61,805 bases of DNA from Oscillospiraceae bacterium. GTDB lineage: Bacteria > Bacillota > Clostridia > Oscillospirales > Oscillospiraceae. Where the stretch lies: positions 1-61,805 of the forward strand of contig SVME01000002.1 in the NCBI GenBank assembly GCA_015067605.1. The letters are read 5' to 3'. The notes beneath the pieces were generated by a model. It did not search any database. It was not told where the DNA came from and was given only the letters and a program-made list of their open reading frames with translations. Numbering within the stretch: the first letter of the stretch is position 1; each line of letters begins with the position of its first letter. Shown here in pieces: positions 23,265 through 57,307 of the stretch. Position numbers and translations under genes: made by a program.

Positions 23265-25331
23265 TCACTGTTTTTTCTTAATAATCACAAATGCAACCGC
23301 ACCAGCCGCAACAACAACCACGGCGACAATGATCCAAACAATGGGGCTGATTCCATCAGGCTCATTCTTACCTGTATTCTTTTCAGTTTCGGTGGTGCTG
23401 TCGGATTTGGTATCTTCCGTGGGCTGGGTATTCACCGTACCCTCATCCTCAGGCTTTTCGGTATCTGGCTTCTCTGTATCATCGGGCGTATCGGGAGTCA
23501 CGGGCTCATCTGGCTTCTCGATTTCGCCGTAGGTGCTCCACTCACCGGTAGCATAATCATACAGATTCTGACCGGTAGACTCTGCGGGCAGGGACAAATC
23601 ATCGGTCTGAGTGCCGTTGGTGTCATTAAAGATAATATTGGGGATGTCAACAGGCACCACGCAGGAATAAATATCACCCTCCACATGAGTCATGGGATTG
23701 CCAGGCCAGGCGTTGGTGTAGATATCCACGGCATCATACCAAGAATAGAAGTTGACGGTGTTCCACTTTCCGGTATTGGCAAAGTACACCGTTCTCTCAG
23801 AGGTCAGCACAGCGCCGCAAGCGCAGGTACGATTGTCGTCGTAGCTATGGCCCACATTGGCACGGCAGGCGGTGCAATAGCCATCCGCATCATGCTGGGC
23901 ATGGGCACAGCTCTCGCACTGGTAAACCACAGCGATACCGGTGCTGCCGATGGAGCCGGAAATCTTGCCGTTGGCAACGGTGAAGGTGTTGCCGGTAATC
24001 TGGTCGGTGTAGGTACCATCAGCCATTGCATGAGCAGTTACATTGACCTCAGCCTCTGCGCCCTTGCAGTTGACCAGTACCACACCAGCGTTGCCACGCT
24101 CCACATAAGCGATATCGCCCTCGTTAGCAACATACTCCGGCTGGCCGATGAAGCTGGTATGGAACTTGTTGGCCGCAGCTACCTCAGGATAGCCCCAAGC
24201 CGTATCGGAGGCTGCACCAAGTAGCTGGGAGATATTGGCCGGACGAGCCAGATACAGGCTCATCGCATCCGCACGGGCAGCAATCAGCGCCCAAGTCTTG
24301 TTGATATTATTCTCGGAAACATCGGCAGTGGAGCCATCCGCATAGGTATCGTGGGACTCTGCCCACAGCACCAGCTGGGATGCGTCATCGCTCTTGCGAT
24401 AATTTGCAAAGAACCCGCTGGCAGAGCCGCCGGAAATGGCACCCAGAGCGCTGGCGCTCCAGATATTGTCGGTGACGCTCATGTACTTGGTGTAAGCACC
24501 AACACCGCCGTTACCGGCAGTATCATCCAGCAGCTCACCGTAGCAGTACAGCTCAATGCCACGGCTGGACTGGGCATACTCGGTGGCACCGTTGATAACG
24601 GTGGGCCAGAAATCGCTGGCCAAATCTCCATCTTCAGGGGTTTCGATGTGCTTGGCAGCGTCAAAACGGAAGCCATCGGCACCGGCATCAATACACTCCT
24701 TCAGATACTCCAGTACATAATTCTGAACCTTCTTATTGGCAGTGTTCAAATCTGGCAGACCGGCCATGCAATACTGGGTCACTTCCAGCCGGCTGCTGTA
24801 ATTGGAGGTGTTTTTATTCACATCATGCCAGCAGCTGGCATCATCCCGCAGGTCGGCAACAATAGTGGAAGCCAGACCATTCGTACCGGTTTCGGTGTTA
24901 CCCATGTGGTTTGCGACAACGTCAACAATAACCTTGATGCCATACTCATGTGCAGTCTTGCACATACTCTGGAACTCAGTTTTGGTACCCAGAGCGCTGC
25001 TTTCGCTGTTTTCAATACGAAAATCCGCCGGCTGATAGTACACCCACCAGTCGTTGGAGGGGTAGCCCGCAGTGGCCTGTTTCGCCTTCTGGATGGGCGA
25101 GGTCTGGATGGAAGTGTAGCCAAGACTGGCGATAATCTCCATATTGGCCTCGATTTCTTCGAAAGACCAGTTCCAGCAATGCAAGGTCACGCCATCCTGA
25201 ATACTGATATCTAAAGTATCCTCAGCTTCTGGGGCTGCGAACACCTGCGCAGTAGGCAGGAAAACCAGCACCGTAGCCAGCAAGGAAAGCATCAAAAGCA
25301 ATGCGATAGGTTTGCGTAATCTCATTTTCAT
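23265..25331 (-). CDS. Secreted, membrane-anchored alpha-amylase (GH13 + CBM26-like module)
   Basis: Signal peptide; VIVDVVANHMGN, DGFRFDAAKHIE, YGELLDD, WAESHDTYA; YFANTGKWNTVNFYSWYD starch-binding module; C-terminal TM then KKKQ. Confidence 0.93.
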   Translation of the reverse strand: MKMRLRKPIALLLMLSLLATVLVFLPTAQVFAAPEAEDTLDISIQDGVTLHCWNWSFEEIEANMEIIASLGYTSIQTSPIQKAKQATAGYPSNDWWVYYQPADFRIENSESSALGTKTEFQSMCKTAHEYGIKVIVDVVANHMGNTETGTNGLASTIVADLRDDASCWHDVNKNTSNYSSRLEVTQYCMAGLPDLNTANKKVQNYVLEYLKECIDAGADGFRFDAAKHIETPEDGDLASDFWPTVINGATEYAQSSRGIELYCYGELLDDTAGNGGVGAYTKYMSVTDNIWSASALGAISGGSASGFFANYRKSDDASQLVLWAESHDTYADGSTADVSENNINKTWALIAARADAMSLYLARPANISQLLGAASDTAWGYPEVAAANKFHTSFIGQPEYVANEGDIAYVERGNAGVVLVNCKGAEAEVNVTAHAMADGTYTDQITGNTFTVANGKISGSIGSTGIAVVYQCESCAHAQHDADGYCTACRANVGHSYDDNRTCACGAVLTSERTVYFANTGKWNTVNFYSWYDAVDIYTNAWPGNPMTHVEGDIYSCVVPVDIPNIIFNDTNGTQTDDLSLPAESTGQNLYDYATGEWSTYGEIEKPDEPVTPDTPDDTEKPDTEKPEDEGTVNTQPTEDTKSDSTTETEKNTGKNEPDGISPIVWIIVAVVVVAAGAVAFVIIKKKQ

Positions 25332-25404
25332 AATCGTCCTCCTTATTTTGATTATACGCTTGTCATTATAGCAGAGTTTTCCTGATTTGTCCAGAAAATA
25401 TGTA

Positions 25405-25432
25405 AAACAGGGGCACAACACCGCCCCTGTTC
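25405..25432 (-). terminator. Terminator of the HprK-like gene
   Basis: Minus-strand AACAGGGGC...GCCCCTGTTTT. Confidence 0.65.
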
Positions 25433-27185: not shown

Positions 27186-30100
27186 TCATTTTTGCAGGGA
27201 TGCGAAATAGGCTTTTGCGTAGTAGCCATAAACGGCTGTGCGGGCCGCAAGGCTGTTCGGATCGTTGGATTCCTTAGCAGCAGCTTGCTTGCAATATTGC
27301 CCCAAAGAATAGCAAATAACTCCGGTGCAATAGTTTACGCCACCGCTTTGATATACAACGGAAATAAACACCGGCTGATCCACTTGTTTGGCAGCGATTC
27401 CGGTGATTTCGGTGGTAAAGATGTCATCTCCATCATCAGCCATGATAACGATTTTAGAAGCATTGTGCTTAGAAAGCTGCGACGCATTGTTATACCGATC
27501 CAGACTCCAGCAATACAGGGTCACATCGCCATCCGGCAAGTGGGTTGGATCAACATAGAAATTGATAGCAAACGCGCCTTCAAAGGAAACGGTCGGATAG
27601 AATTGGTCAAATCCGCCTTTTTTCGGGAAATTATAGCCCTTGAACGAATCCACAGTGACAAGAGGCGCAACCATCGAAGCGTCATACGCATCCACAAAGC
27701 CTCGCTGCTCTGCGGTTAAACCGCTGTTCATTAAATCATATGGCTTATAGTTGAAGTATGTCTGCGCAGCCGCACCATAATCCAGCATTGCTACACACAG
27801 AGCACGAATTTCCGGAGAAGCGGTTTCATTTTTAGCGATGCTAAGAGCATAAGACTTGGGACTGGTGGAGTACATACTGCTGTAAACCACCGTTCCATCG
27901 CTCAGCTTGGCATAGATTTTGAAGTAAACCAAATCACCCAGCTTCTTTGCGGGAATTCCCTGGGTGTGGACCATATATTTCCCGCCTTCGTAAGCAGCTC
28001 CGGGAATTACCGTTTCGGCGGTTTCAAGGGTTCCTTCAGACCGCGGGGATGACCACGTAAGCAATCCCATCTGCGCAAGGGTGACCTCACTGCTATCAGA
28101 TACGGTGAAATAGATGTTCATCTGAACTTGTCCCTCAAAGGATACCGTCGGGTAGCTGGGAGCGATGGTGGGCGTAGGCAGTGTTTTTCCACAAACAATA
28201 CAAACGCGATTGACGTAGCTGTGCTCCACCTGTTCTGCACATTTTTCACAAACGCCATCGGTGTTATGGCTTGTGTGCATACAGATATCCGTTTCTCCAC
28301 AAATAGAACACACGCCGTCTATAAAGCTGTGATTCCCCAGCAGTGCCCCGTTGTTTCGATAAACGGTTCTGGATTCAACCTGTCTGGAAGCGGAGGATGT
28401 CGCCGGCTCTGCAGACCAATCGGTCCAAGGTGTCCAACCCTCATAGGAATAGGATGCCCGATAGGTGGTATAATCCTGTGCATAAACCGGGATATAGTAC
28501 CACCACCAGCTATCTTTGCAGGCAGAACCATAGCTGTGCGTGATGCTACCGTCGGAGGCAGGCGTCAGAGCGGTGGGATCTAAGGTCTGCGAATCCAGAT
28601 AGTAGCCATGGAATGTGTTATGGGTGCTGTCCTTGGTGGCAGAGGTGGTGCGGTTTATGGGGCCTGCTGTATAGGAGTTGCGGCACCAGTGATAATACAC
28701 ATATCCAACAAGGCGACTCTCCCCTGCCACGGTTTTCTCGGAAGTAGTCTCGACAGAGCTTTTGGGCGCTTGATTGTACTTGCTGTACAGGCTGTTGGAG
28801 GTGTCAAAGCCTGTGGGCCAATTCTTGACATATTGAACTGTGCCGGTGCCGATCTGAGCCCATTCCTTTCCGATGGCAGTAAATCCGTCGGGAACGGTGG
28901 TCTGGCCTGAAAGGGAAACAAAATCACGGTAGCGATACTCAACCCTCGTTTCCAGCAGCGCCTCGTCTGCATCTTCGGGCTTCGTTTCTGTCCATAAATC
29001 ATCCGGATCTGTAGCATAAATGCTGTATTTGTCACCACATTGGATGCAGGTATAGCTAATTTTTGCGTAATCCCGACAGTTCGCAGGAATATTGGTGCTA
29101 ACATAGCTGTGACCCGTGGCCTTGATGACCGTTTGTGCCGTCAAAACCAGCCCGCATTTGGAGCAGTGACTGCCATCGGTCAGGCCATCGGCAGTGCAGG
29201 TGGCGTCACGCCCTGGATCCACCACCACGTTGTGGTCACAAGCCACTGTGGCGGGGGGCTCTACCGATGCGTTCCCTACTGTAAACGGCTTCGTCCAAAG
29301 CACTACGTTTTCCGTTTTGCTGACAAGTGTGCCATTACTTACATAGTAGTTGGTCGCATCCACGGACAGCTCATAGGTGTAGTAACCCACTGGCAAATTG
29401 CTAAAAATCAGATTGTCGCAAACCTTACTGTAATGCAGGCAATACTCCTTGCTGTTAGGCGAGTCGGAGCTGGTCATCAGTGGCGAGGAAAGCGTGTCCT
29501 CCTCGGCGTAGACCTTGGCGTTGATCTTACCCAGATTATTGTATTTTGACGCCAACCTGCCGTTGAGAGAATACCCACTCTTCAACGCCAAATCTGCCAT
29601 AGTCGGATCTATAACAGATATGTCATCAAAGCGGTGGTTGGTAACAGTAACATAGCCAGCATCGATATATCCGGTTGTACCGTTTCGGTCAACCTGATAC
29701 CAGTAATTGCCGTAGGTATTTTTGTAAACACCGGTCACATGTAGCTGAGTGCCCGCATTCAGCGTTTCCAAAACAGAGTGATTTGTGCTGGGATACTGCC
29801 GCAGATTCACGTTGGAATCAAGCGTCACATCCAGATTGGCCGGATAATAATCGCAGCTGCCAAGATAACTTTTGTCCGTATTTTTTCCGGGAAACTCGCC
29901 ATAATAGTAATTGCAGTCCACATCGCCGCTGATTCCGGAGAAGGAGCCGGTCCAAGAGTATTGCCAAACGGTAAGACCCTTGGCATAGGAACAGCTGTTC
30001 ACGTTGACATTCGCTACCCACTTAGGCATCGTGCTGTAATAGCTGCCGCCAAAATAGGAATTATACCAGCTCAAGAAAGTATATAGTCCCGGTTCATAGC

Positions 30101-31184
30101 CTGCATCTCTGATGGTATCGCAAAATGCTTTGACGATATTCTGCAAAGCGGTCGCACCAAGAGATGCCTGTGAGCTATCCTCAATATCGAAGAACACCGG
30201 TAAATCCACATCGTAGTTTTTCAAAACGGAAATAACAAATTCCGCCTCTGCCACCGCTTCCGCTTCATTTACGGCATAGGAGTACAGATACACACCAAAA
30301 GGCACGCCATTGGCATTACAGCCGGACGCATAGTTCTTGAACTGAGAGTCAATGGATGTGGAGTAGCCAATGCGAAGAATGGCAAAATCAATCTGGGGAG
30401 CAACGGCCGCCCAATTGATGTTCCCCTGCCAAAAGCTTACGTCGATTCCCTTGGCAACCACAGGATTAGGAGCGCTGGGGTTGGTGATGATCAGAGGCTT
30501 ATTGTCCAGCACCACCAGCTGCGTATGGGACTGCAAGCTGCCGGAATCGTCAATGTAGTAGCTGATGGCCTCAACACTCAGCAGAAACGTGTAGGAGCCT
30601 GCTGCCAAATCGCTGAATATCAAATTCTCGTCCAGCTTACTGCCGGTAATATTGTAGGATTTCCCGTTAACGGTATCGGAGGAAACAATGGCCGGAGCGG
30701 CGGTAATATTGGAGCTGTAATGAACAGCAGCAGTAACCACTCCCAGCTTGTTCACAGAGGAGGAAATCTTGCCGCCCAAAGGGAAACCTGCTTTATAACC
30801 CAAAGCCGCCGGAGTCATCAAATCGGAACCGGTCACATCGCCAGTCAGATGCTCGACCATCGTAGCCGCAGTTGCTTCGACGTAAAGGGTCATCCGGTAA
30901 TAGGAAACCTCATACCAGTAAACTCCCTGCGCATCCAGATGCAAGGCGTTTACAGTCAGCATAGTTCCCTCAGGCAAAGTATACTTCACCTCCGCTGACG
31001 AAAGAGGGGTTTGCTTTAAACCGGCTACCCGTGTGGTTTTGACGCGAAGGCTGGACTCATAGCTGGCGACAATGCCGGTGGGGGCTGTGGCGGCGTTAGA
31101 ATCCGCCACAGGCCCCAAATACATCATCGATGCCAGCATGACCAGCGAAAGCGTTAAAGACAGAATCCGTTTTAGTTGCTTCAT
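27186..31184 (-). CDS. Secreted multidomain GH25 lysozyme with SH3-like domains, CxxC repeats and a C-terminal repeated module
   Basis: Signal peptide; GIDVSFWQGNINWAAV...FAILRIGYS...VFFDIEDSSQ (GH25); SH3-like VNLRQYPSTNHSVLETLNAGTQLHVTG; CxxC modules; duplicated YPTVSFEG module. Confidence 0.9.
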   Translation of the reverse strand: MKQLKRILSLTLSLVMLASMMYLGPVADSNAATAPTGIVASYESSLRVKTTRVAGLKQTPLSSAEVKYTLPEGTMLTVNALHLDAQGVYWYEVSYYRMTLYVEATAATMVEHLTGDVTGSDLMTPAALGYKAGFPLGGKISSSVNKLGVVTAAVHYSSNITAAPAIVSSDTVNGKSYNITGSKLDENLIFSDLAAGSYTFLLSVEAISYYIDDSGSLQSHTQLVVLDNKPLIITNPSAPNPVVAKGIDVSFWQGNINWAAVAPQIDFAILRIGYSTSIDSQFKNYASGCNANGVPFGVYLYSYAVNEAEAVAEAEFVISVLKNYDVDLPVFFDIEDSSQASLGATALQNIVKAFCDTIRDAGYEPGLYTFLSWYNSYFGGSYYSTMPKWVANVNVNSCSYAKGLTVWQYSWTGSFSGISGDVDCNYYYGEFPGKNTDKSYLGSCDYYPANLDVTLDSNVNLRQYPSTNHSVLETLNAGTQLHVTGVYKNTYGNYWYQVDRNGTTGYIDAGYVTVTNHRFDDISVIDPTMADLALKSGYSLNGRLASKYNNLGKINAKVYAEEDTLSSPLMTSSDSPNSKEYCLHYSKVCDNLIFSNLPVGYYTYELSVDATNYYVSNGTLVSKTENVVLWTKPFTVGNASVEPPATVACDHNVVVDPGRDATCTADGLTDGSHCSKCGLVLTAQTVIKATGHSYVSTNIPANCRDYAKISYTCIQCGDKYSIYATDPDDLWTETKPEDADEALLETRVEYRYRDFVSLSGQTTVPDGFTAIGKEWAQIGTGTVQYVKNWPTGFDTSNSLYSKYNQAPKSSVETTSEKTVAGESRLVGYVYYHWCRNSYTAGPINRTTSATKDSTHNTFHGYYLDSQTLDPTALTPASDGSITHSYGSACKDSWWWYYIPVYAQDYTTYRASYSYEGWTPWTDWSAEPATSSASRQVESRTVYRNNGALLGNHSFIDGVCSICGETDICMHTSHNTDGVCEKCAEQVEHSYVNRVCIVCGKTLPTPTIAPSYPTVSFEGQVQMNIYFTVSDSSEVTLAQMGLLTWSSPRSEGTLETAETVIPGAAYEGGKYMVHTQGIPAKKLGDLVYFKIYAKLSDGTVVYSSMYSTSPKSYALSIAKNETASPEIRALCVAMLDYGAAAQTYFNYKPYDLMNSGLTAEQRGFVDAYDASMVAPLVTVDSFKGYNFPKKGGFDQFYPTVSFEGAFAINFYVDPTHLPDGDVTLYCWSLDRYNNASQLSKHNASKIVIMADDGDDIFTTEITGIAAKQVDQPVFISVVYQSGGVNYCTGVICYSLGQYCKQAAAKESNDPNSLAARTAVYGYYAKAYFASLQK

Positions 31185-37065: not shown

Positions 37066-37093
37066 CAGGGCGGTGACATTCATCACCGCCCTG
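37066..37093. terminator. Terminator hairpin for the leftward cohesin-like gene
   Basis: CAGGGCGGTGA-CATTCA-TCACCGCCCTG. Confidence 0.65.
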
Positions 37094-37097
37094 TCGT

Positions 37098-37913
37098 TCA
37101 TTTATATTTCTTTTTGCGAATCAGAATCACCGATGCCGCACCACCCATAATAACCAAAATCGTAATAACGATCCAAGCCACCGGTGATTGCTCTTTGTCC
37201 GGTGCATAACCGCAAATATCGCAACGTCCGTCCTCATTCTCATCGGCATGAACCTCCAAGCGAGACAGTCCGCAAGCGCTGCAGTCATACCAGTGGCCAT
37301 CCGAATCTCCTGATTCAGGCTTCTTCCAGTCATGTTCGGACACCGCGCCATCTGCTGCACCGCAAAGGTCGCAGATTTTAGGTGCCGTGCAGTCCGCATT
37401 CCTCCATTGATGATTGCAAGGCTCATCCACAGAAATCGCCGCATCAGCGATTGTATAAGGAATATTGTTGTACTCCCCGTCAAAGACATTCTCTGGATCG
37501 ATTTCAAAGTGAACGACCTTCAAACCGGAGGTATCAGCATCTACCGTACACTGGAATTGCATCAAAACCGTATCAAACTCACTGGAGTATTCGCAGGAAC
37601 CGACAATCAACACCAGCGTTTCTTCAATAAACTCCGCCTTTGCTGCATTCATCGTTTCAGAAAGTCCCTCAGAAATCTGGCCGGATCCTTCCACATATTT
37701 AAGCCCCTCAGGCACGGCGATTTTCAGTTTCATGCCATACAGATTCTCCACCGCCCCTAGGCTTACGGTGTAAGTGACCGTATCGCCGGGGCTAACGTTG
37801 GTTATGTCTGCTGTCATCTTAAAGCAGGTAGGCTCGGCCGCAAAGCAAGGGTATGCCCAAAGTGACGCAACAAAAATTATCATCACAATCGCAACAATTC
37901 GTTTCACAGCCAA
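37098..37913 (-). CDS. Membrane-anchored cohesin-like domain protein with CxxC repeats
   Basis: Signal peptide; NVSPGDTVTYTVSLGAVENLYGMKLKIAVPEGLKYV...VLMQFQCTVDADTSG (cohesin-like); CxxC modules; C-terminal TM plus IRKKKYK. Confidence 0.72.
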   Translation of the reverse strand: MAVKRIVAIVMIIFVASLWAYPCFAAEPTCFKMTADITNVSPGDTVTYTVSLGAVENLYGMKLKIAVPEGLKYVEGSGQISEGLSETMNAAKAEFIEETLVLIVGSCEYSSEFDTVLMQFQCTVDADTSGLKVVHFEIDPENVFDGEYNNIPYTIADAAISVDEPCNHQWRNADCTAPKICDLCGAADGAVSEHDWKKPESGDSDGHWYDCSACGLSRLEVHADENEDGRCDICGYAPDKEQSPVAWIVITILVIMGGAASVILIRKKKYK

Positions 37914-37926
37914 ACTCCTTTCTCAT

Positions 37927-40900
37927 TTACCACAGAGGATTCGTTTCGCTGACATGGTCGTACAGTCGATTCCAGTCCTTCATATTCACCTTACCGTCGC
38001 TATTGACATCACCACACTCATAGCGATAATCGGTCAGGGGCGTTTTTTCGCTGACGTGCTCGTACATCACATTCCAGTCCTTCATATTTACCTTGCCGTC
38101 CCCATTCACATCGCCAATCAGGCAGATTTCAGCATCCTGCGACACATCGGCGCTGGCAACAGTGATTTCATAGGTTCTGGCAATGTGGTTAGCCTTGGAC
38201 ACACGCAGCGTATAGCTGCCATCAGCAACATCCGTAAAGACGTAGGCACCATCCGCAGCAGTGGTGGTGTACACAACGCTGTCACCCAGCAACAGTTCCA
38301 CGGTCACATCGCCTTCCGTGGCCGCACTTTCAACCGTACCGCTGACATAAGAACCGTCATCGTCATTTTCAAAAACGGTGGTGTAGTAAACCGTACCCGC
38401 CGCGCCATCGAGCATATACAGCTGGGGCAGCAACATGCTGGTGTTAGTGTTGGAGGTGTAGGTCAGGAATCTGGGGCTATTGACGTTATACAGGAAACGG
38501 CCGTTTGCTGCGGCGGTATTCTGAATGGTAGCGTTAAAGTCCTCATCCACAGTAATGCTCCAAGTAGTGACACCGGTATCCCAATTCACATTCTTCACAG
38601 CAACGCCACCCAGTTGCTGGCCAGAAGCGTTGGTCAGAGTCCACTGTCCCGCAGTTCCGCCAAGTGTGAAGATAACTGCATCCTCAGGTAGCGTGGTGAT
38701 GGTAGAATAATCGTTAGAGAACACTGCTCCGACACTGGTCAGATACTTGCTATTCAGAGAACCAGCCACTGTGCCCTTCACATTGGAGGCCAGAACCAGC
38801 TCCGCACCGGAAGTGAGGTCAGCAGCATCTGTAACCAGCTTCCACTCGCCGGAGCCCATGCCCTCAGGGGCATAGCTGTACAGAGCGTAAAGCGTTACGG
38901 CCGAATCAGTATTAAAGGTGCTGCCAGCGGAATAGTAATCAGGCTTGCTGTCGCTGTTGTCAACCTGCTGGGTAACCCAACCAACAAAATAATACTCATA
39001 TTCCCCGGTGGGCACACCCGCGGTGGGCAGTGTAATACCAGCCTTGCCACAATCCATGCCGGTCACAGGGGTAACGCCCCGAGGAACCACAAAGCTAACT
39101 CTGAACTGCTCACCCAGTGCGTCCACATAATCGTCCACATAACTGTCACCGCACACGGTGCAGGTGTAGGTAGTATAGCCCTGCTCTGTGGCAGTAGGTT
39201 CGGTCACAACACTGTCATAGTCATGGCCAAGAGCAGCCTGCAACTCATGACCGCTGATATAGGACTTGCAGTCCTCGCAGTACACGCCAGCTGAATAGCC
39301 ATAATTGGTGCAATCCGGCAGCTGCTCAGGAACCTCGGCGGTATGGATATGCTCACAAGTAGCGCAGGAGGTGCTGTAATAAACAGTTCCGTTGGACATT
39401 TTGTACAAGGTAATTCCACTACCGGTGCTGGGCGAATAGCAGGCAAAGCCGAAGTTGGAGTTTCTACGCAGCGTATAAGTAACACCCTTCGTCTTGTTGC
39501 CATAATTCTCAAAGACCTGATCAGCAGAAATGCTCCATTTTGCGTAATCCGTCACGCTATCCAGTAATTTACCCTTGCTGGCAGCGCCGCTGCCGCCGGC
39601 ATACATACCAACACCTTCATTATATACCGTGAAGTAGTTTCCGGCAGGCGCGATATGCCAGATGATAGACGCACTGGGGTTCATGATGGTGTTATCGGTG
39701 ATGATAACATCCTTGTAATCGAAGCGACCCTTGTCAGAAACCACAGCTTCCATAGCACCGCCATCGGACACAATTAGATAATCGCCCTCCACCGGCAGGC
39801 CGGTATAGGCTTCGTAGACACTGCTTAGACCGGAGCCGTTGCTGTCCACCCGAGAGTACAGGGCATAGAAGGTAACGTCACCGGTAACGATGTACTGCTG
39901 ACCGGCACGCAATATGGAAGCAGGCGCTGCGGTGGTTTGATCCACAGGGGCAGTTACCCATCCAAGGAAGGTGTAGCCCGCAGCAGGTGTACCACTGTGC
40001 GACGGCATCATGATGCCGTCATCTACATAAACGGTGGAGGTGGACGCTATGGTACCATCTTCGGAGAAACAGACAGTACCAGTGGTTCTGGCAACGAAAT
40101 TGATTTGAATCTCGCAATCGGAGCTGGCTATGACAGTGAACACGTTACCGTCACGGGTCACAGTGGCGTCACCACTGAGGAGGGTGTATCCAGAAATAAT
40201 GTAACCGTCCGCCGGAGTAGCGTTGATATTTTTACCGTTGACAGAAACCGTTCCGTGGGCGTTGTTGCTGGAGGTAGCGGTGATGGTGAATCCACCCTTG
40301 GCTGCCTCGCCGGAGGGTGTATCCATGACGGGAATCTCCTCCCCAAACAGAACAAACACCAACTCAGGATAATCTACAAACACATTGCGTGTACCGGTGA
40401 TGGACTCAACGGAGTCGTTTCTTCCCAGCTCCCATGTATCCACAGGGTCTTCCTTCATCCACTTCAGCAGGATTTCCTTATTCTCGATGACGCCATCGGT
40501 ACCCCACAGGTTGGTATTGCCCCAACGAACATAAACGTACAGCATGGTGCGAGCCACATCGCCCCGCAGGTGATACTTACCGTTGGAATCCGAATCCGGA
40601 TCAAAATAGCTGGAGCTTTCACCATAGGCCTTGTTGCCACGGGCGCTATTTTCGCTCTTAGATGTGGGACGGAGCATCATGATGTCGTTTTCATCGCTGC
40701 CATTCAATCCCTTACTGTTAGGCCAAGTATGTTCCCGATTCCAAGTCGCACCGCCATCCCAGTCAGGGCCAACGCCAATACCGGTGTAGAAGGAGGAGAT
40801 AGAACCCTTCGCAGTATTGCTGGAATTCTGACAGTCCGTAAAGCGGTACAAATCTCTGGTCTGATTGTAAGTAGTGATGATCTTGTGATTGTCCTTCATC

Positions 40901-41208
40901 AGCTCAGCCAGTTCCTTATACAGCGGGCTGTTGGGCACACTGCTGGTATTGGAGGAGCCGGACAAGGCAGACAGCTCCGCATAGGAGGTATGGTTGTCCT
41001 GATAAAAATCGATTGCATTGGGAGAAAGGAAGGTGGCAAGGGTACCACGGCTGCCCCAATTCAGAATCACATTGCTAAAGCCGTCAGCGTTGCCGGTTTT
41101 GTATGTGACCGTTGCGGCCGTGCCGGTAAACACCAGTCCAGACAGCAGACTCACGCACATAACCAAAGCAAGTAGCAATGATAATCCACGTTTTGCACAG
41201 GTTCTCAT
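37927..41208 (-). CDS. Secreted endonuclease I family nuclease with C-terminal type I-like dockerin
   Basis: Signal peptide; WNREHTWPNSKGL...ENDIMMLRPT...RGNKAYGESS...DVARTMLYVYVRW (endonuclease I); carboxypeptidase regulatory-like domain; dockerin GDVNGDGKVNMKDWNVMYEHVSE...GDVNSDGKVNMKDWNRLYDHVSE. Confidence 0.9.
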   Translation of the reverse strand: MRTCAKRGLSLLLALVMCVSLLSGLVFTGTAATVTYKTGNADGFSNVILNWGSRGTLATFLSPNAIDFYQDNHTSYAELSALSGSSNTSSVPNSPLYKELAELMKDNHKIITTYNQTRDLYRFTDCQNSSNTAKGSISSFYTGIGVGPDWDGGATWNREHTWPNSKGLNGSDENDIMMLRPTSKSENSARGNKAYGESSSYFDPDSDSNGKYHLRGDVARTMLYVYVRWGNTNLWGTDGVIENKEILLKWMKEDPVDTWELGRNDSVESITGTRNVFVDYPELVFVLFGEEIPVMDTPSGEAAKGGFTITATSSNNAHGTVSVNGKNINATPADGYIISGYTLLSGDATVTRDGNVFTVIASSDCEIQINFVARTTGTVCFSEDGTIASTSTVYVDDGIMMPSHSGTPAAGYTFLGWVTAPVDQTTAAPASILRAGQQYIVTGDVTFYALYSRVDSNGSGLSSVYEAYTGLPVEGDYLIVSDGGAMEAVVSDKGRFDYKDVIITDNTIMNPSASIIWHIAPAGNYFTVYNEGVGMYAGGSGAASKGKLLDSVTDYAKWSISADQVFENYGNKTKGVTYTLRRNSNFGFACYSPSTGSGITLYKMSNGTVYYSTSCATCEHIHTAEVPEQLPDCTNYGYSAGVYCEDCKSYISGHELQAALGHDYDSVVTEPTATEQGYTTYTCTVCGDSYVDDYVDALGEQFRVSFVVPRGVTPVTGMDCGKAGITLPTAGVPTGEYEYYFVGWVTQQVDNSDSKPDYYSAGSTFNTDSAVTLYALYSYAPEGMGSGEWKLVTDAADLTSGAELVLASNVKGTVAGSLNSKYLTSVGAVFSNDYSTITTLPEDAVIFTLGGTAGQWTLTNASGQQLGGVAVKNVNWDTGVTTWSITVDEDFNATIQNTAAANGRFLYNVNSPRFLTYTSNTNTSMLLPQLYMLDGAAGTVYYTTVFENDDDGSYVSGTVESAATEGDVTVELLLGDSVVYTTTAADGAYVFTDVADGSYTLRVSKANHIARTYEITVASADVSQDAEICLIGDVNGDGKVNMKDWNVMYEHVSEKTPLTDYRYECGDVNSDGKVNMKDWNRLYDHVSETNPLW

Positions 41209-41326
41209 AAAGTCAACTCCGTTTCTACATAATATCACATGGGCATTATACCACAACAACCCCCGAATATCAATCTTGAATTCTGTACATTTCGATGATA
41301 AAATGAAGAAAATAGGAGGTGTCGCC

Positions 41327-50022: not shown

Positions 50023-51447
50023 ATGAGCAAGAAAATCATTTCCCTCCTGCTGGTTCTGGTAATGCTGCTGAGCGTCGTCGCGATGACTGGCTGCTCTAAG
50101 AAGCAAACCGGTAATACCACCAACGTAATTGCAAAAGAGGACATTACTTTTAGCATGGATGAAGAGGTAAACATCACCTTCACCCATACCATGGGCGCCA
50201 AGCTGCAGGGCATCCTTGACACCTATATCAAGGAGTTCAACAAAATTTACCCCAATATCCACATCACCCACCAGTCCGCTGGTGGCTGGGCTGATATCAA
50301 CGGCCAGATTAACACTGAGATTGCCGGCGGCAAGCAGCCCAACATCGCTTACTGCTACCCCGACCACGTTGCTACCTACAACATTGCTAAGTCCGTCATC
50401 GTGCTGGACACCCTGATTGAAAGCGACGTTGCCATCGGCGACACCGGTATGATTATCGGCCTGACCAACGAAGAGAAGGCCGACTTCATCGAGAGCTACT
50501 ACAACGAAGGCACCGTATATGGCGATGGCAAGATGTACACCATGCCTCTGAGCAAATCCACCGAGGTTCTGTACTACGACAAGACCTTCTTCGAAGCCAA
50601 TAACCTGACCGTCCCCACCACTTGGGACGAGATGTGGGATGTCTGCGCCAAGATTAAAGCCATTGATTCCGAGTGCTATCCTCTGGGCTACGATGCTGAG
50701 GACAACTGGTTCATCACCCTGTGTGAGCAGAACCAGACCGGCTTCACCAGCGCTGAGGACGGCGGCAAATTCCTGTTCAACAACGATGCCAACAAGGCAA
50801 TGGTGAAGGAACTGCGCGAGTACTACCAGAAGGGTTACTTCACCACCCAGGAGCTGTACGGCAGCTATACCTCCAACCTGTTCGTCGAGACCACCGATAC
50901 CCGCTGCTATATGTGTGTCGGCTCCTCCGGCGGTGCATCCTACCAGATGTCCAACAACGATACCAGCGACGGCAGCTTTGCCTTCGAAGTCGGTGTTGCT
51001 CCTATCCCTCAGGCCGATGCCAACAATCAGAAAACCATTTCTCAAGGTCCCAGCCTGTGTATCCTGCAGGGCGCTGACACCACTAATCAGGAAATCGTTG
51101 CATCCTGGCTGTTCGTCAAGTTCCTGTGCACCAATGTTGATTTCCAGGCCGAGTTCTCCATGGAGTCCGGCTATATGCCCGTGCTGAAGTCCGTCACCGA
51201 AAACGAAGCCTACGCCAAGTGGCTGGCAAAGGGCAACGGTTACGAGTATCTGGTCGCCAAGTGCGTACAGATTGGTATCGAGGGTCGTGACAACTACTTT
51301 GTTTCCCCTGCTTTCGATGGCTCCTCCACCGCCCGTTCCGAGGCTGGCTCTCTGCTGCTGAAGTGTCTGAGTGGTAAGCCCTCCGGTTCTCTGGATGACT
51401 TCATCGATCAGGCTTTCAAGGAAGCAATTGAAGAGTGTGAATATTAA
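50023..51447 (+). CDS. Extracellular solute-binding lipoprotein (family 1)
   Basis: Lipobox LLSVVAMTGCSKK; ITFTHTMGAKLQGILDTYIKEFNKIYPNI, TEVLYYDKTFFEANNLTVPTTWDEMWD. Confidence 0.93.
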   Translation: MSKKIISLLLVLVMLLSVVAMTGCSKKQTGNTTNVIAKEDITFSMDEEVNITFTHTMGAKLQGILDTYIKEFNKIYPNIHITHQSAGGWADINGQINTEIAGGKQPNIAYCYPDHVATYNIAKSVIVLDTLIESDVAIGDTGMIIGLTNEEKADFIESYYNEGTVYGDGKMYTMPLSKSTEVLYYDKTFFEANNLTVPTTWDEMWDVCAKIKAIDSECYPLGYDAEDNWFITLCEQNQTGFTSAEDGGKFLFNNDANKAMVKELREYYQKGYFTTQELYGSYTSNLFVETTDTRCYMCVGSSGGASYQMSNNDTSDGSFAFEVGVAPIPQADANNQKTISQGPSLCILQGADTTNQEIVASWLFVKFLCTNVDFQAEFSMESGYMPVLKSVTENEAYAKWLAKGNGYEYLVAKCVQIGIEGRDNYFVSPAFDGSSTARSEAGSLLLKCLSGKPSGSLDDFIDQAFKEAIEECEY

Positions 51448-51451
51448 TGCC

Positions 51452-52828
51452 ATGAAAATTAAAAGAATTTTTGCTCTAATTTTAGTCCTCTGTCTGGCAG
51501 CCGGTTGTTTTACCGGCTGCCAGCAGGAGGAAACTCCTGACGCTACTACTGCGTCCGGCAATGGCGACAAGAATACAATTCCTGAAAACGTTGACTATGT
51601 GGCCCAGACCAAGCTGGACATGAACTCCGACACTCTGAAGCTGGAGGTTACCGTCCGCAGCTACATCGACGGAGATACCACCCACTTCAACGTTCCCCAC
51701 GATGTCAGCGATAACGGCGTTTTGAAGGCCCGTTACCTGTGCGTCAACACCCCCGAGTCCACCGGCAAGATTGAGGAGTGGGGCAAAAAAGCCTCCAACT
51801 TCACCAAGGAAAAGCTGAAAAGCGCCAGCTCCATCATCATCGAATCCAACGATGGCAAGTGGAATGCTGACTCCACCGGCGGTCGTTATCTGGTCTGGGT
51901 TTGGTATAAGCCCGCCGACGGCAACGATTATCGTTGCCTGAATCTGGAGTTGATTCAGAACGGTCTTTCCATCTCTTGTGGCACGGTTGCTGAGCGCTAT
52001 GGCCAAGTGGCCACCGACGCTTTCCAGCAGGCCAAGGCTCAGAAGCTCCATGTGTTCTCCAACGAGGACGACCCGGACTTCTACTACGGCGATGCCTACG
52101 AAATCGACCTAAAAGGTCTGCGCACCAACATCGCTCTCTATGAAAATACCACCGTTGCCTTCGAAGGCGTTGTGACCAACAACTTCAACAACTCCGTTTA
52201 CGTAGAAAGCTATGATGCAGAAACCGATATGTACTATGGCGTTTCTGTGTACTATGGCTTTGAGACAGGCGAACTGCTGAACAACCTGAAGGTTGGTAAT
52301 ATGGTTCGTGTGGTCGGCTCCGTCCAGTATTACGAAGCCGGCGGTACATGGCAGATTTCCGATGTCAGCTACCGTGAATTCAAGCCTGACGACCCCACCA
52401 ATACCGTTATGCTCAGCTCTGGTCACGAGGCCGGTAACCGTCTGACTGCCCCTGACCTCTTTGCCAATGGCACTGTGGAAGTGGAAGTACTGTCGGACAT
52501 TTCCGGCGAAGAAACCGAAACCAAGACCTTTAAGTATGCAGATCTTTGCATGAGCACCACCATTTCCATGGAGAATCTGTACGTCAGCGAAATCTACACT
52601 ACCAACAACGGCGGCGACAGCGATGGCGCTATGACCCTGACCTGTATTGCCGAAGGCGGTGTAGAAATCGATGTGCGTACCGCCGTGCTTTATGACGAAA
52701 ACGGTGAAATGATTTCCGCTGCCGACTACCGCTATAAGACCATCAACGTCACCGGCGTAGTGGATTATTTCAGCGGCAGCTATCAGATTAAGGTGTTCAA
52801 TGCCGACGCAATCACCGTTCAGGAATAA
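51452..52828 (+). CDS. Thermonuclease (SNase)-domain lipoprotein with OB-like C-terminus
   Basis: Lipobox CLAAGCFTGC; VTVRSYIDGDTTHFNVP...LKARYLCVNTPESTGKIEEWGKKASNFTKEKL; 4-bp gap to the SBP gene. Confidence 0.9.
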   Translation: MKIKRIFALILVLCLAAGCFTGCQQEETPDATTASGNGDKNTIPENVDYVAQTKLDMNSDTLKLEVTVRSYIDGDTTHFNVPHDVSDNGVLKARYLCVNTPESTGKIEEWGKKASNFTKEKLKSASSIIIESNDGKWNADSTGGRYLVWVWYKPADGNDYRCLNLELIQNGLSISCGTVAERYGQVATDAFQQAKAQKLHVFSNEDDPDFYYGDAYEIDLKGLRTNIALYENTTVAFEGVVTNNFNNSVYVESYDAETDMYYGVSVYYGFETGELLNNLKVGNMVRVVGSVQYYEAGGTWQISDVSYREFKPDDPTNTVMLSSGHEAGNRLTAPDLFANGTVEVEVLSDISGEETETKTFKYADLCMSTTISMENLYVSEIYTTNNGGDSDGAMTLTCIAEGGVEIDVRTAVLYDENGEMISAADYRYKTINVTGVVDYFSGSYQIKVFNADAITVQE

Positions 52829-52846
52829 TTAGAAAGGAAGTATGAT

Positions 52847-55615
52847 ATGAAAAGAATAATTTCCCTTCTGTTGCTGCTGGCTATTTGTTTGTCCGTCTTT
52901 GTCGGATGTAATAACGAAGAAGCCAAGGATAGTGGTAAGGAAACCACCAAGCCCACCTCCGGCAACACCTCCGACGATAATACCGCAGAAGAAAGCGACA
53001 TCCCCAGCGCCATTGCTTTCTTGGAGAATCAGTACCCCGAAGCCAGCAAGGGTAAAGTGCAGGTCCTTTCCAACGACATCGACCTGCTGTCCGTGGTTGT
53101 TGTTGGCCGTGTCAGCTACACCGTCGAATGGACTGTGTCCGTCACCGAGGGCTCCTCTGACGCCGCCAAGATTGGCGAATCCTCCAAGGAAAATCACGTC
53201 CTGCTGGACATCAACGAAACCCCCGAGACCGATGTTACGTTCATTGCTACCGCTACCGTGAAGGATCCCGCCGGCGATTCCAAGACCGCCGCTTTCAACT
53301 TCCAGATTGTTGCCTCCGCTACTGCTGGCATGACCGACGAAGAAATCGTCGAGTTGGCCTACCAGCTAGCCGAGGGCGAGATTATGAACGGCAGCTCCAC
53401 CCTGACTGGTGTCATCAAGATGATTAAGTCCCCCTGGGACCCCGACTTCCAGAACATCACTGTTGTCATTCAGATTGGTGATTTGGCCGACAAGCGCATT
53501 GAGTGCTACCGCATGACCGGCGAAGGCGCTAAAGATTTGGCCATCGGTGACACCATCACCGTCACCGGCGTTCTGAAAAACTACAACGGCACCATCGAAT
53601 TCGATGCTGGCTGTGTTGTTTCCAACATTGTCAAGGGTGAAACTGTTGAAGTGCCCACCGATCCCAAGGCCATTGTAGATGCCGCCTATGCTCTGCCCGC
53701 TGGCGAAGCACTGCCCTACTCCGCAACCCTGACCGGCATGATTTATGCCATCAACTCCCCCTACGATGAGGGCTATCAGAACATCACCGTCACCATTGTT
53801 GTGGATGGCTACGAAGCAAAGCCCATCCTGGTCTACCGCTTGAAGGGCGAAGGCGCTGATAAGCTGGAGCTGGGCGACACCATCACTGTCACCGGCTACA
53901 TCGTCAACTACAACGGCACCATCGAGTACACCTCCGGCTGCACTCTGGATAGCTTCAAGAAGGGTGACGGCGCTCCCGACAATATTCCCGATAAGGAAGT
54001 TGACATTGTGGATGCCGCCTACAAGCTGGCAGAAGGCAACGCCCTTCCCTACAGCGCTACCCTGACCGGTAAGGTCACCGAGGTTAACGATGCATATAGT
54101 GCCGAGTACGGCAACATCACCGTTACCATTACCATCCCCGGTCGTGAGAAGAAGCCCATCAAGTGTTACCGTCTGAAGGGCCCCGGCGTTGACAAGGTAG
54201 CCATTGGTGATACCCTGACTGTTAGTGGCATTCTGAAGAACTTCTATGGTGAAATTGAGTTTGACGCAGGTTGCACTTTGATTAAGCGCGACGCAGGCGG
54301 TAACGCCCCCATTAAGCAGGAAACTGATCCTCTGAAGATTGTTGACGCTGCTTATAAACTGAAGGAAAACACTGATCTGGGCTACGATGTCACCCTGACC
54401 GGTAAGGTCGTGGAAGTCGTTGATGCCTACGATTCCGAGTACAAGAACATCACTGTAACCATTCAGATTTCCGGTCGTGAGAAGAAGCCCATTATCTGCT
54501 ACCGTCTGAAAGGCGAAGGCGTTGAGAAGGTTGCTAAGGGTGATACCATCACCGTTACCGGTCGTCTGAAGAACTACTATGGCGATATCGAATTTGACAA
54601 CGGCTGCAAAATGACCAAGCGTGTTTCCGGTGGTGGCGAGGTTGTTAAGGTAGAAACCGACCCCAAGAAGATTGTTGATGCTGCTTTCAAGCTGAAGGAC
54701 GGCGAGCAGCTGGCCTACGACGCAACCCTGACCGGCAAGGTCACCTCTATTAAGACTCCCTATGATGCCGAGCACAGCAACATTAGTGTAATTATCACTG
54801 TTGAGGGTAAGTCCATCGTCTGTTTCCGCATGAAGGGTACCGGCGTTGATAAGATTACGGTGGATGATACCATCACTGTAAAGGGTCGTCTGAAGAATTA
54901 CGGCGGTACGGTGGAGTTTGATGCCAACTGCGAAATGACCAAGCGCGTTTCCGGCGGCGTTGAAACCCAGACCGACTTTAAGAAAATCGTTGAAGAGGCA
55001 TACGCCCTGAAAGATGGCGAGCAGCTGAAGTACACCGCCACCCTCACCGGCAAGGTCGTCAAGCTGGATGTTCCCTACGACGAATCCTTCAAGAACATGA
55101 ATCTGACGATTGCTGTTGCTGGCTGCGAGGATAAGCCCATCCTGTGCTACCGTCTGAAGGGCGACGGTCTGAGCAACAATATCTGTGTTGGAGATACCAT
55201 CACCGTCAAGGGTACTATCAAGAATTACAAAGGCACCATCGAGTTTGATACCGGTTGCACTGCCAGCAACATTAAGTCCGGCGGCGTGAAGAAGCCCACC
55301 GATCCCAAAAAGATTGTTGATGCGGCGTTTGCACTGGCTGGCGGCGATTCTTTGAAGTACTTCGCCACTCTGACCGGTAAGGTTACAGAGATTAATACCG
55401 CCTACGACAGCTCGTACAAGAACATCACCATCACCATTGAGGTCGAGGGTTCCGATGGCATGAAGGAGCTGAAGTGCTACCGCCTGAAGGGCGAAGGCGC
55501 TGATAAGATTAAGGTTGGCGATACCGTCACTGTCACTGGTGTTATCAAGAACTATGTACATAGCTCTTCCGGCGATTCTGAAATTGAATTCGACGCAGGT
55601 TGTGTCCTCGGATAA
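52847..55615 (+). CDS. Lipoprotein with seven tandem OB-fold-like repeats
   Basis: Lipobox CLSVFVGC; seven ~110-aa units of (I)VDAAYxLxxGxxLxYxATLTGxV...NITVTIxVxGxxxKPIxCYRLKGxGxDKxxxGDTITVxGxxKNYxGxIEFDxGCxL. Confidence 0.85.
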   Translation: MKRIISLLLLLAICLSVFVGCNNEEAKDSGKETTKPTSGNTSDDNTAEESDIPSAIAFLENQYPEASKGKVQVLSNDIDLLSVVVVGRVSYTVEWTVSVTEGSSDAAKIGESSKENHVLLDINETPETDVTFIATATVKDPAGDSKTAAFNFQIVASATAGMTDEEIVELAYQLAEGEIMNGSSTLTGVIKMIKSPWDPDFQNITVVIQIGDLADKRIECYRMTGEGAKDLAIGDTITVTGVLKNYNGTIEFDAGCVVSNIVKGETVEVPTDPKAIVDAAYALPAGEALPYSATLTGMIYAINSPYDEGYQNITVTIVVDGYEAKPILVYRLKGEGADKLELGDTITVTGYIVNYNGTIEYTSGCTLDSFKKGDGAPDNIPDKEVDIVDAAYKLAEGNALPYSATLTGKVTEVNDAYSAEYGNITVTITIPGREKKPIKCYRLKGPGVDKVAIGDTLTVSGILKNFYGEIEFDAGCTLIKRDAGGNAPIKQETDPLKIVDAAYKLKENTDLGYDVTLTGKVVEVVDAYDSEYKNITVTIQISGREKKPIICYRLKGEGVEKVAKGDTITVTGRLKNYYGDIEFDNGCKMTKRVSGGGEVVKVETDPKKIVDAAFKLKDGEQLAYDATLTGKVTSIKTPYDAEHSNISVIITVEGKSIVCFRMKGTGVDKITVDDTITVKGRLKNYGGTVEFDANCEMTKRVSGGVETQTDFKKIVEEAYALKDGEQLKYTATLTGKVVKLDVPYDESFKNMNLTIAVAGCEDKPILCYRLKGDGLSNNICVGDTITVKGTIKNYKGTIEFDTGCTASNIKSGGVKKPTDPKKIVDAAFALAGGDSLKYFATLTGKVTEINTAYDSSYKNITITIEVEGSDGMKELKCYRLKGEGADKIKVGDTVTVTGVIKNYVHSSSGDSEIEFDAGCVLG
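53330..55612 (+). repeat. Seven ~330-bp tandem coding repeats (OB-fold units)
   Basis: Units begin near 53341, 53673, 54005, 54338, 54670, 54988 and 55314; protein-level similarity strong. Confidence 0.85.
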
Positions 55616-55630
55616 TTCCCATATCTAGCA

Positions 55631-55658
55631 AACAGGAGCGGGTCCCCCGCTCCTGTTT
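55631..55658 (+). terminator. Rho-independent terminator
   Basis: AACAGGAGCGGG-TCCC-CCGCTCCTGTT-TTA. Confidence 0.8.
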
Positions 55659-55665
55659 TATCGAA

Positions 55666-55695
55666 ATACGCCCCAACCATTTCGGTCGGGGCGTA
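55666..55695 (-). terminator. Terminator of the FAD oxidoreductase gene
   Basis: ATACGCCCCaACC-ATTTC-GGTcGGGGCGTAT followed on the minus strand by TTTCG. Confidence 0.55.
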
Positions 55696-55699
55696 TCTA

Positions 55700-57073
55700 T
55701 TAACTAAGCATACATCTGGCAACGTGAATACCGCTGGCAGAAGCGTGAGAAAGAGAATGTGTGATGCCGCTGCCGTCACCGATAATATATAGTCCACTCA
55801 GGCAACTCTGCAAGGATGCATCCACCGCAACTTCCATGTTGTAAAATTTCACCTCAACGCCATAAAGCAGCGTATCGTCATTGGCTGTACCGGGCGCAAT
55901 CTTATCCAGTGCATAAATCATCTCGATGATTCCGTCCAGCAGCCGCTTGGGCAGCACCAGACTCAAATCGCCAGGCGTAGCATTCATGGTCGGGGTTGTG
56001 AAGGACTCCTCAATGCGTTTTGCAGTGCTACGCTGACCGCGAATCAGGTCGCCAAACCGCTGCACCATAACGCCGCCGCCCAGCATATTGCTCAGACGTG
56101 CAATGGACTCCGCATAACCGGTAGAATCCTTAAAGGGTTCTGAGAAATGTTTAGATACCAAGAGCGCAAAATTGGTGTTCTGGGTTTGCTTTTCCGGATC
56201 CTCGTAGCTGTGACCATTCACCGTAACAATACCATTGGTATTTTCGCTAACCACAGAGCCTTTGGGGTTCATGCAGAAGGTACGCACCCGATCACCATAT
56301 TTGGGAGTTCGGTAAACAATTTTGCTTTCGTACAGCTCATCGGTCAAATGAGAAAATACCTCCGCCGGAAGCTCAACACGAACGCCAATGTCCACTCTGT
56401 TAGACTGGGTGGGGATATTCAGCTCCTTGCATATTTTCTCCATCCATTTGCTGCCGCTACGTCCCACGGAAACGATGCACTTTTCACTGGTGTAAATTCC
56501 ACAGGCGCAGTGTACAGCATATCCACCTTCAATCACCGAAATGGATTCCACCGGTGTGTCAAAGAAAAACGTCACCTTGTCCTTCAGGTTCTCATACAAA
56601 TTCCCAAGCACAACATAGTTGATGTCGGTTCCCAAATGCCGAACCGACGCATCCAGCAGATGCAAATCATTTTGCATACAAATCTTCTTGAACTTACTGC
56701 CAGCAGTGGAATAGAGTTTCGTACCCTCACCGCCAAAGCGCATATTGATGTCATCCACATAACGCATCAGCTCCAGCGCCCGCTGTTTACCGATGTATTC
56801 ATACAGCGTTCCGCCGAAATCATTGGTGATGTTGTATTTTCCATCGGAAAAGGCACCGGCTCCGCCAAATCCGCTCATAATAGAGCAGCTTTTACAGCCA
56901 ATGCAGTGCTTGACCTTTTCGCCGTCAATGGGACAACGACGCTTTTCCAGCGGATGTCCCGCCTCAAAAACACCAATCTTCAGCGATGAATCCAGATTAA
57001 TCAATTCATAAGCAGAAAAAATACCACCCGGACCAGCACCAATAATAATCACATCAAAATCCATTATCAACAC
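55700..57073 (-). CDS. FAD-dependent oxidoreductase (NAD(P)/FAD-binding)
   Basis: FDVIIIGAGPGGIFSAYELI, HCIGCKSCSIMSGFGGAGAFSDGKYNITNDFGG, GLYIIGDGSGITHSLSHASASGI. Confidence 0.88.
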   Translation of the reverse strand: MLIMDFDVIIIGAGPGGIFSAYELINLDSSLKIGVFEAGHPLEKRRCPIDGEKVKHCIGCKSCSIMSGFGGAGAFSDGKYNITNDFGGTLYEYIGKQRALELMRYVDDINMRFGGEGTKLYSTAGSKFKKICMQNDLHLLDASVRHLGTDINYVVLGNLYENLKDKVTFFFDTPVESISVIEGGYAVHCACGIYTSEKCIVSVGRSGSKWMEKICKELNIPTQSNRVDIGVRVELPAEVFSHLTDELYESKIVYRTPKYGDRVRTFCMNPKGSVVSENTNGIVTVNGHSYEDPEKQTQNTNFALLVSKHFSEPFKDSTGYAESIARLSNMLGGGVMVQRFGDLIRGQRSTAKRIEESFTTPTMNATPGDLSLVLPKRLLDGIIEMIYALDKIAPGTANDDTLLYGVEVKFYNMEVAVDASLQSCLSGLYIIGDGSGITHSLSHASASGIHVARCMLS

Positions 57074-57242
57074 TCCTCCCTCACACCTTGATCATCAACC
57101 CAAACGCGAGGATCAAATAATTGCACAAATAGCTCTGCGCATTTTGTATATTGTAACACATAGCACTAAAAGTCGCAAGCACCAAAATATGTTTTTGTGC
57201 ATTTTGTGTAACGCCTCAGAAATTTGGAACCAATATTTCCTG

Positions 57243-57271
57243 TTGAATTATTGACTTACATGATGTATAAT
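57243..57271 (+). promoter_or_regulatory. Promoter of the 5'-nucleotidase gene
   Basis: TTGAAT - 17 bp - TATAAT, 37 bp upstream of the start. Confidence 0.7.
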
Positions 57272-57307
57272 TAGTTAAATAAAATACATTTATAGAAGGT
57301 GTAAACC

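Follow-up and report, generated by a model that had tools for sequence, protein, structure and literature searches.

Two adjacent genes in a 61,805-nucleotide stretch of an Oscillospiraceae bacterium genome (positions 1 to 61,805 of contig SVME01000002.1, assembly GCA_015067605.1; hereafter, the window) encode an endonuclease I-family nuclease that ends in a dockerin and a membrane-anchored cohesin-like protein. The pair is probably a two-piece surface anchor, in which a dockerin and an anchored cohesin hold a DNA-degrading enzyme at the cell for nucleic-acid scavenging. The domains, the fold, the operon layout, the shared dockerin class, the genus-wide recurrence of such pairs and the co-variation of their partners are computed results. 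That the partners bind, that they need calcium to do so, that the nuclease sits on the surface, that it is active and that its products are used is inferred. The features concerned, in the order of transcription, are the following.

41245–41273, minus strand: sigma-70-like promoter, TTGATA-17-TATAAT, 11/12 with TG (a match to the consensus and no more; the region has no more promoter matches than shuffled sequences)
37927–41208, minus strand: secreted endonuclease I-family nuclease with a C-terminal dockerin, 1093 amino acids (open reading frame; Endonuclease_1 E 1.6e-18; Dockerin_1 E 1.3e-9)
40300–41091, minus strand: nuclease domain with the catalytic motif NREHTWP, an RxN motif and a DPVDTWE block (motif conservation; PDB match)
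38180–38361, minus strand: beta-sandwich, X-module-like or CarboxypepD_reg-like, immediately before the dockerin (own-genome identity; AlphaFold2; Foldseek)
37927–38120, minus strand: type I dockerin with two near-identical calcium-binding repeats (NMKDWN) (Pfam 38.6 bits; PDB 2ccl_B, E 2.8e-5)
37098–37907, minus strand: membrane-anchored cohesin-like protein, probable GTG start (open reading frame; AGGAG and GTG read from the sequence)
37420–37835, minus strand: cohesin domain (AlphaFold2, Foldseek, non-circular hidden Markov model, hhalign)
37101–37190, minus strand: C-terminal transmembrane helix VAWIVITILVIMGGAASVILI followed by RKKKYK, without an LPXTG motif (sequence)
37066–37093, no strand assigned: GC-rich hairpin with an 11-pair stem, a possible terminator, just 3' of the cohesin gene (T-rich tail called on the plus strand only)

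The nuclease and its dockerin

The nuclease reading frame runs on the minus strand from an ATG at 41208 to a stop at 37927, and the likely GTG start of the cohesin gene, at 37907, lies 7 nucleotides after an AGGAG and 19 nucleotides past that stop. The promoter-like site before the nuclease gene and the hairpin after the cohesin gene, both consensus matches, fit a two-gene operon.

The nuclease carries a signal peptide (MRTCAKRGLSLLLALVMCVSLLSGLVFTGTAA) and belongs to the Endonuclease_1 family (PF04231; 67.7 bits against a cut-off of 25, residues 113–282), its domain also matching Endonuclease I in the PDB (1oup/1ouo, E 4e-4). Across 11 homologues, E120 and H121, both within NREHTWP, and N153 are invariant; in this family, Glu, His and Asn make up the active site of endonuclease I and Vvn, and with the motif residues intact, endonuclease I-family activity is predicted. 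The solved Endonuclease I-family members matched by sequence are simple secreted or periplasmic enzymes. The window nuclease shares the fold family (PF04231) and the motif residues with Endonuclease I and Vvn, but differs from the solved members in adding long tails, an X-like module and a dockerin.

The dockerin (Dockerin_1, 38.6 bits against a cut-off of 22.9, residues 1032–1082; 43.1 bits in the genome search) consists of the repeats GDVNGDGKVNMKDWN and GDVNSDGKVNMKDWN, both of which retain D1, N3, D5 and D12, so that it has the two calcium-binding F-hand repeats of a type I dockerin; it matches the solved dockerin 2ccl_B (E 2.8e-5). Together with the beta-sandwich that precedes it, it is 51–55% identical to three other dockerin proteins of the same genome. 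The AlphaFold2 model of this region contains blocks with a predicted local distance difference test (pLDDT) score of 68–94, with the dockerin half below 50, and the Foldseek matches of this weak model include X-dockerins (2b59_B, 4u3s_B and 5g5d_B, E 3e-6 to 6e-6; range to 7e-5, root-mean-square deviation 7–10). With so weak a dockerin half, the model does not suffice to claim a type II X-dockerin dyad, with the X-module packed on the dockerin.

A preliminary description of the window, made from the sequence alone, had drawn both genes much as they appear here. Its coordinates and features hold in the open reading frames and Pfam matches, including the two dockerin repeats that it quoted, the secreted endonuclease I to which they belong and the hydrophobic helix by which the cohesin-like protein would be anchored; the surface tether that it predicted is supported as the likeliest reading only.

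The cohesin-like membrane protein

In the product of the downstream open reading frame (37098–37913, minus strand), a signal peptide is followed by a cohesin-like domain and by segments with paired Cys, and the C-terminus has a hydrophobic helix. We rejected anchoring of this protein by a sortase, as no PF04203 match was found in the genome; the window cohesin also has no LPXTG motif.

The Pfam cohesin model scores the domain at 13.5 bits, below the cut-off of 24.1, and the sequence passes only with a genus-specific profile, for which reason we call it cohesin-like. That profile, built from other cohesins of the genus with the window sequence excluded, matches residues 36–165, the full length of the domain (E 3.8e-6), and profile–profile comparison with the genus cohesins (hhalign) gives a probability of 96.5% over 124 columns. 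As a phmmer search of PDB sequences with the window cohesin returned no relative, a fold model was used. The AlphaFold2 model, for which 15 genus sequences served as input, has a pLDDT of 85.4 and a predicted template modelling score of 0.82, and in a Foldseek comparison with the PDB its best 28 matches are all cohesins, with the jelly-roll cohesin fold at template modelling (TM) scores of 0.57–0.71. The leading match is 6kgf_A (E 1.7e-8, TM 0.71), 5n5p_C and 1aoh_A are among the top, and cohesins of OlpA, OlpC, CipA and Ruminococcus flavefaciens are included. The cohesin fold of the window domain is well supported by these models; that it would bind a dockerin is predicted by analogy with other pairs.

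The domain might instead be a generic Ig-like surface module of the DUF11 type and no working cohesin, in which case the dockerin would bind elsewhere. The Pfam score below the cut-off speaks for this possibility, and the DUF11-type repeat model TIGR01451 reaches 22.5 bits on the first half of the domain (cut-off 24) and 25.8 bits, above the cut-off, on a homologue encoded elsewhere in the genome (contig C84, see below). However, the match covers only about 47 residues and DUF11 is absent from the Pfam matches with E values of up to 1, whereas the 28 best fold matches are cohesins and the genus cohesins are matched over the full length; we therefore regard a DUF11-type module as very unlikely.

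Other dockerins and cohesins in the genome

The source assembly comprises 1.84 Mb in 115 contigs and is 85% complete. A genome search for further cohesins and dockerins, put forward in the preliminary description, recovered both. Five dockerin proteins score above the Pfam cut-off, the nuclease included. The four others, a 3030-residue leucine-rich repeat (LRR) protein and three proteins without a recognised enzyme domain, carry repeats of the same type (NMKDW), and [ML]KDW is found in 10/10 repeats of the own-genome dockerins vs 0/38 two-repeat dockerins from loci of other genomes. The genus cohesin profile detects three anchored single-cohesin proteins: the window protein, C84 and C46. The cohesin domain of C84 is 60% identical to that of the window, with an IPQTAD motif preceding its membrane helix; C46 is divergent, with a Cys-pair region and a helix with a KKKKQ tail. 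We dropped dockerin matches in C58, which were below threshold, and a weak, partial cohesin match in a redoxin-like protein (G000:C9).

These findings bear on the preliminary description in two ways. Its view of the pair as a departure from plant-polysaccharide cellulosomes is supported, with no multi-cohesin scaffoldin found in the 85% complete genome, from which one may be missing, and no plant-polysaccharide enzyme recognised among its five dockerin proteins. In contrast, the "one-enzyme" complex that it envisaged is not supported, in view of four other proteins with near-identical dockerins and at least two more anchored cohesin-like proteins. A scaffoldin elsewhere, which the description had named as a partner that would refute it, is therefore a possible partner. 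The four additional same-class dockerins and the second same-class cohesin suggest a socket that several surface proteins of one binding class have in common, which fits better than a one-enzyme complex. To judge by sequence class, the window dockerin would most likely bind both same-class cohesins.

Dockerin–cohesin pairs across the genus

Among 101 genomes of the genus, 45 have both dockerins and cohesins, 48 have neither and 8 are split (45/7/1/48; p 7e-20, a value inflated by relatedness). Neighbouring genes on one strand in the order dockerin, then cohesin, no more than 350 bp apart, make up 31 pairs in 24 genomes, compared to 0.05 expected from density alone. The sequences of 28 adjacent pairs could be extracted, and most of their downstream genes encode a signal peptide, a cohesin, a linker and a C-terminal membrane helix. 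In these 28 pairs, the distances between dockerins correlate with those between cohesins (r 0.72 for all pairs, 0.66 with near-duplicates removed and 0.71 for the strong non-redundant ones; p 1e-4), and dockerin and cohesin share the same nearest neighbour in 13 pairs (null mean 1.0, maximum 6).

Pfam annotation of the cargo covered 19 upstream proteins. Seven are lysozymes of the GH24-type Phage_lysozyme family, to which an eighth, in G101, is added by shared reading frame; the rest include an M23 peptidase with a lectin, a CHAP protein (below the cut-off), two LRR_5 proteins, a SASA esterase, a CBM_X2 protein and several proteins without a recognised enzyme domain. No match to a cellulase or xylanase family was found among the 19. 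In two cases, similar dockerin–cohesin pairs come with different cargo: the pair of G072 has a lysozyme where that of G090 has an LRR protein, and the pairs of G119 (lysozyme) and G091 (LRR protein) differ in the same way. The match between the partners is thus kept despite the change of cargo, which argues for matched specificity.

We consider it possible, if on balance somewhat doubtful, that throughout this genus of herbivore-gut Oscillospiraceae (Clostridia) many one-cargo, one-anchor pairs of matched specificity display enzymes that dismantle bacterial cells (lysozymes, wall peptidases and the nuclease) rather than plant-fibre enzymes, a bacteriolytic, nucleic-acid-recycling surface assembled from cellulosome parts.

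Other arrangements occur as well. G010, G025, G035 and G066 encode many proteins of 2000–4000 amino acids with a dockerin and a cohesin about 3 kb off, often in the same frame, at an oddly constant spacing near 2950–3070 bp. In G001:C2, G008:C22, G069:C94 and G108:C50, dockerin and cohesin genes lie on opposite strands, about 460–490 bp apart.

Surface retention of related nucleases

Proteins with PF04231 occur in 24 of the 101 genus genomes, and by coordinate comparison only the window genome has a dockerin on the same protein. A wider scan of GTDB genomes yielded 77 loci with related nucleases, mainly metagenome-assembled genomes from ruminant and deer gut. Of their 72 complete nucleases, 38 end in a membrane helix (called by a hydropathy rule), 2 have a dockerin and 32 have neither. 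Surface retention therefore appears common in the family, with a dockerin as one way among several, and these sequences suggest that a dockerin can stand in for the membrane anchor of the nuclease itself. As a general rule, anchor replacement failed when tested on lysozymes: among 20 non-dockerin lysozymes, not one of the 19 with a complete C-terminus has a membrane helix there, and an SH3-like domain is what most carry at the end. Accordingly, we retain the idea for the nuclease only.

The two dockerin-bearing nucleases among the 77 loci (L136 and L151) do not adjoin a cohesin, and their genomes have 32 dockerins with 14 cohesins and 21 with 7, respectively. These systems speak for an alternative in which the window nuclease, too, is part of a shared set and has the C84 cohesin or another anchor as its main partner, with the adjacency of the two window genes reflecting co-regulation only. 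The 60% identity of the C84 cohesin, with IPQTAD before its membrane helix, and the ratio of five dockerin proteins to only two same-class cohesins point the same way. However, matched dockerin and cohesin classes recur as neighbours across the genus, and we consider this alternative rather unlikely.

Three further loci carry cohesin-like genes beside dockerin-less nucleases. In L101 (G011:C13, 6171–12312), two endonuclease I genes come after the gene of a protein that has two cohesin matches, and the nearer of them encodes its own membrane helix but lacks a dockerin. In L208 (7682–8464) and L212 (7844–8764), the gene immediately after a dockerin-less nuclease gene encodes a protein with a weak likeness to cohesins (E 0.0027).

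Comparison with known systems

In retaining dockerin partners through one cohesin on an anchored protein, the pair resembles ScaE of R. flavefaciens and OlpA and OlpC of Clostridium thermocellum. OlpA is a single anchored cohesin that acts with cellulosome enzymes. ScaE is an anchored protein with a single cohesin (PMC2930009). It relies on a sortase motif and carries a cellulosome of many enzymes, whereas the window protein has a simple membrane helix as its anchor and is preceded immediately by the nuclease gene. A lone cohesin of R. albus has been proposed as a surface anchor for isolated dockerin enzymes without a cellulosome (PMC6118326), and the likeness extends to anchoring of this kind; the R. 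albus cohesin, however, is fused to a dockerin and its cargo consists of plant-fibre enzymes (PMC4081043). Similarly, the amylosome of R. bromii and the mucinolysome of Limousia are cohesin–dockerin assemblies for non-cellulose substrates (PMC12997984), but the amylosome carries starch enzymes and the mucinolysome combines multi-cohesin scaffoldins with mucin enzymes, its paper naming no nuclease or lysozyme (PMC12997984). Clostridium perfringens also puts single-cohesin proteins to non-cellulosomal use (PMC12997984), although in multi-toxin complexes on animal tissue, which are not described there as a gene pair of enzyme and membrane anchor.

Cargo directed at targets other than plants has precedents, given that the dockerin proteins of R. 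flavefaciens include LRR proteins and peptidases (PMC2930009) and that tabulated dockerin-related CAZymes of ruminococci include GH24 and GH25 (PMC4081043). In the open-access literature searched, we found no description of a nuclease as cargo, a dockerin-bearing endonuclease I included, or of a genus-wide pattern of matched two-gene cargo and anchor pairs.

A proposed two-piece surface anchor

Under the proposed model, the exported endonuclease I-family nuclease comes from the first gene of a small operon and the membrane-anchored cohesin from the second. The dockerin, probably with its X-module-like neighbour, would bind the cohesin outside the cell in a calcium-dependent manner, so that the docked nuclease would stay on the surface of the producing cell and cut nucleic acids there. 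The same socket would also serve the four other exported proteins with this dockerin type, with the second same-class cohesin at hand. Nucleotides from extracellular nucleic acids would be freed beside the cell, alongside the action of a secreted staphylococcal-type nuclease (SNase) lipoprotein (51.4–52.8 kb) and a 5'-nucleotidase lipoprotein (57.3–58.9 kb), encoded 10–17 kb from the nuclease.

Several points weigh against this model. The window cohesin scores below the cut-off in Pfam and is also scored by the DUF11-type model TIGR01451, C84 could be the true partner of the nuclease, and shared ancestry could explain part of the dockerin–cohesin co-variation, inflating it. Moreover, the window cohesin has a close homologue in none of 59 relative genomes, and for lack of such a counterpart the case for its pairing is an analogy drawn from other pairs. 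The likely DNA-scavenging role, finally, is drawn from gene content only. Instead of feeding the cell, the nuclease could serve defence or competition by degrading DNA of phages or biofilms or traps made of DNA. Surface nucleases with such roles are known from pathogens (PMC9294136), and the genus cassettes often carry a wall-cutting lysozyme. Nevertheless, no defence genes were seen beside the nuclease gene, and the nearby SNase and 5'-nucleotidase genes fit nucleotide recovery, which makes such a function unlikely.

Cohesins and dockerins are usually taken as signs of fibre-degrading cellulosomes. In the present case they resemble a general two-piece anchor, encoded in matched gene pairs and loaded with a nuclease or a lysozyme, and such a role, if true, would alter the reading of cohesin and dockerin genes in gut genomes. 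The pairs of the genus also make up a large natural collection of apparently matched cohesins and dockerins for engineering, and they raise the testable claim that gut bacteria live on the remains of other microbes.

Neighbouring genes

Just after a sugar-type ABC transporter, the region 51371–58906 encodes the SNase-domain, OB-fold repeat and 5'-nucleotidase lipoproteins, which look like an extracellular nucleic-acid recycling set. Near the nuclease gene, positions 27186–31184 encode a 1332-residue GH25 lysozyme with an SH3 domain and a long, repeat-rich C-terminus. As far as gene content goes, these lipoproteins and the lysozyme suggest that the cell recycles nucleic acids as well as cell debris. 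Related alpha-amylases are encoded at 23265–25421 and 59033–61804, the former with a starch-binding CBM26 and a C-terminal membrane helix and without a dockerin.

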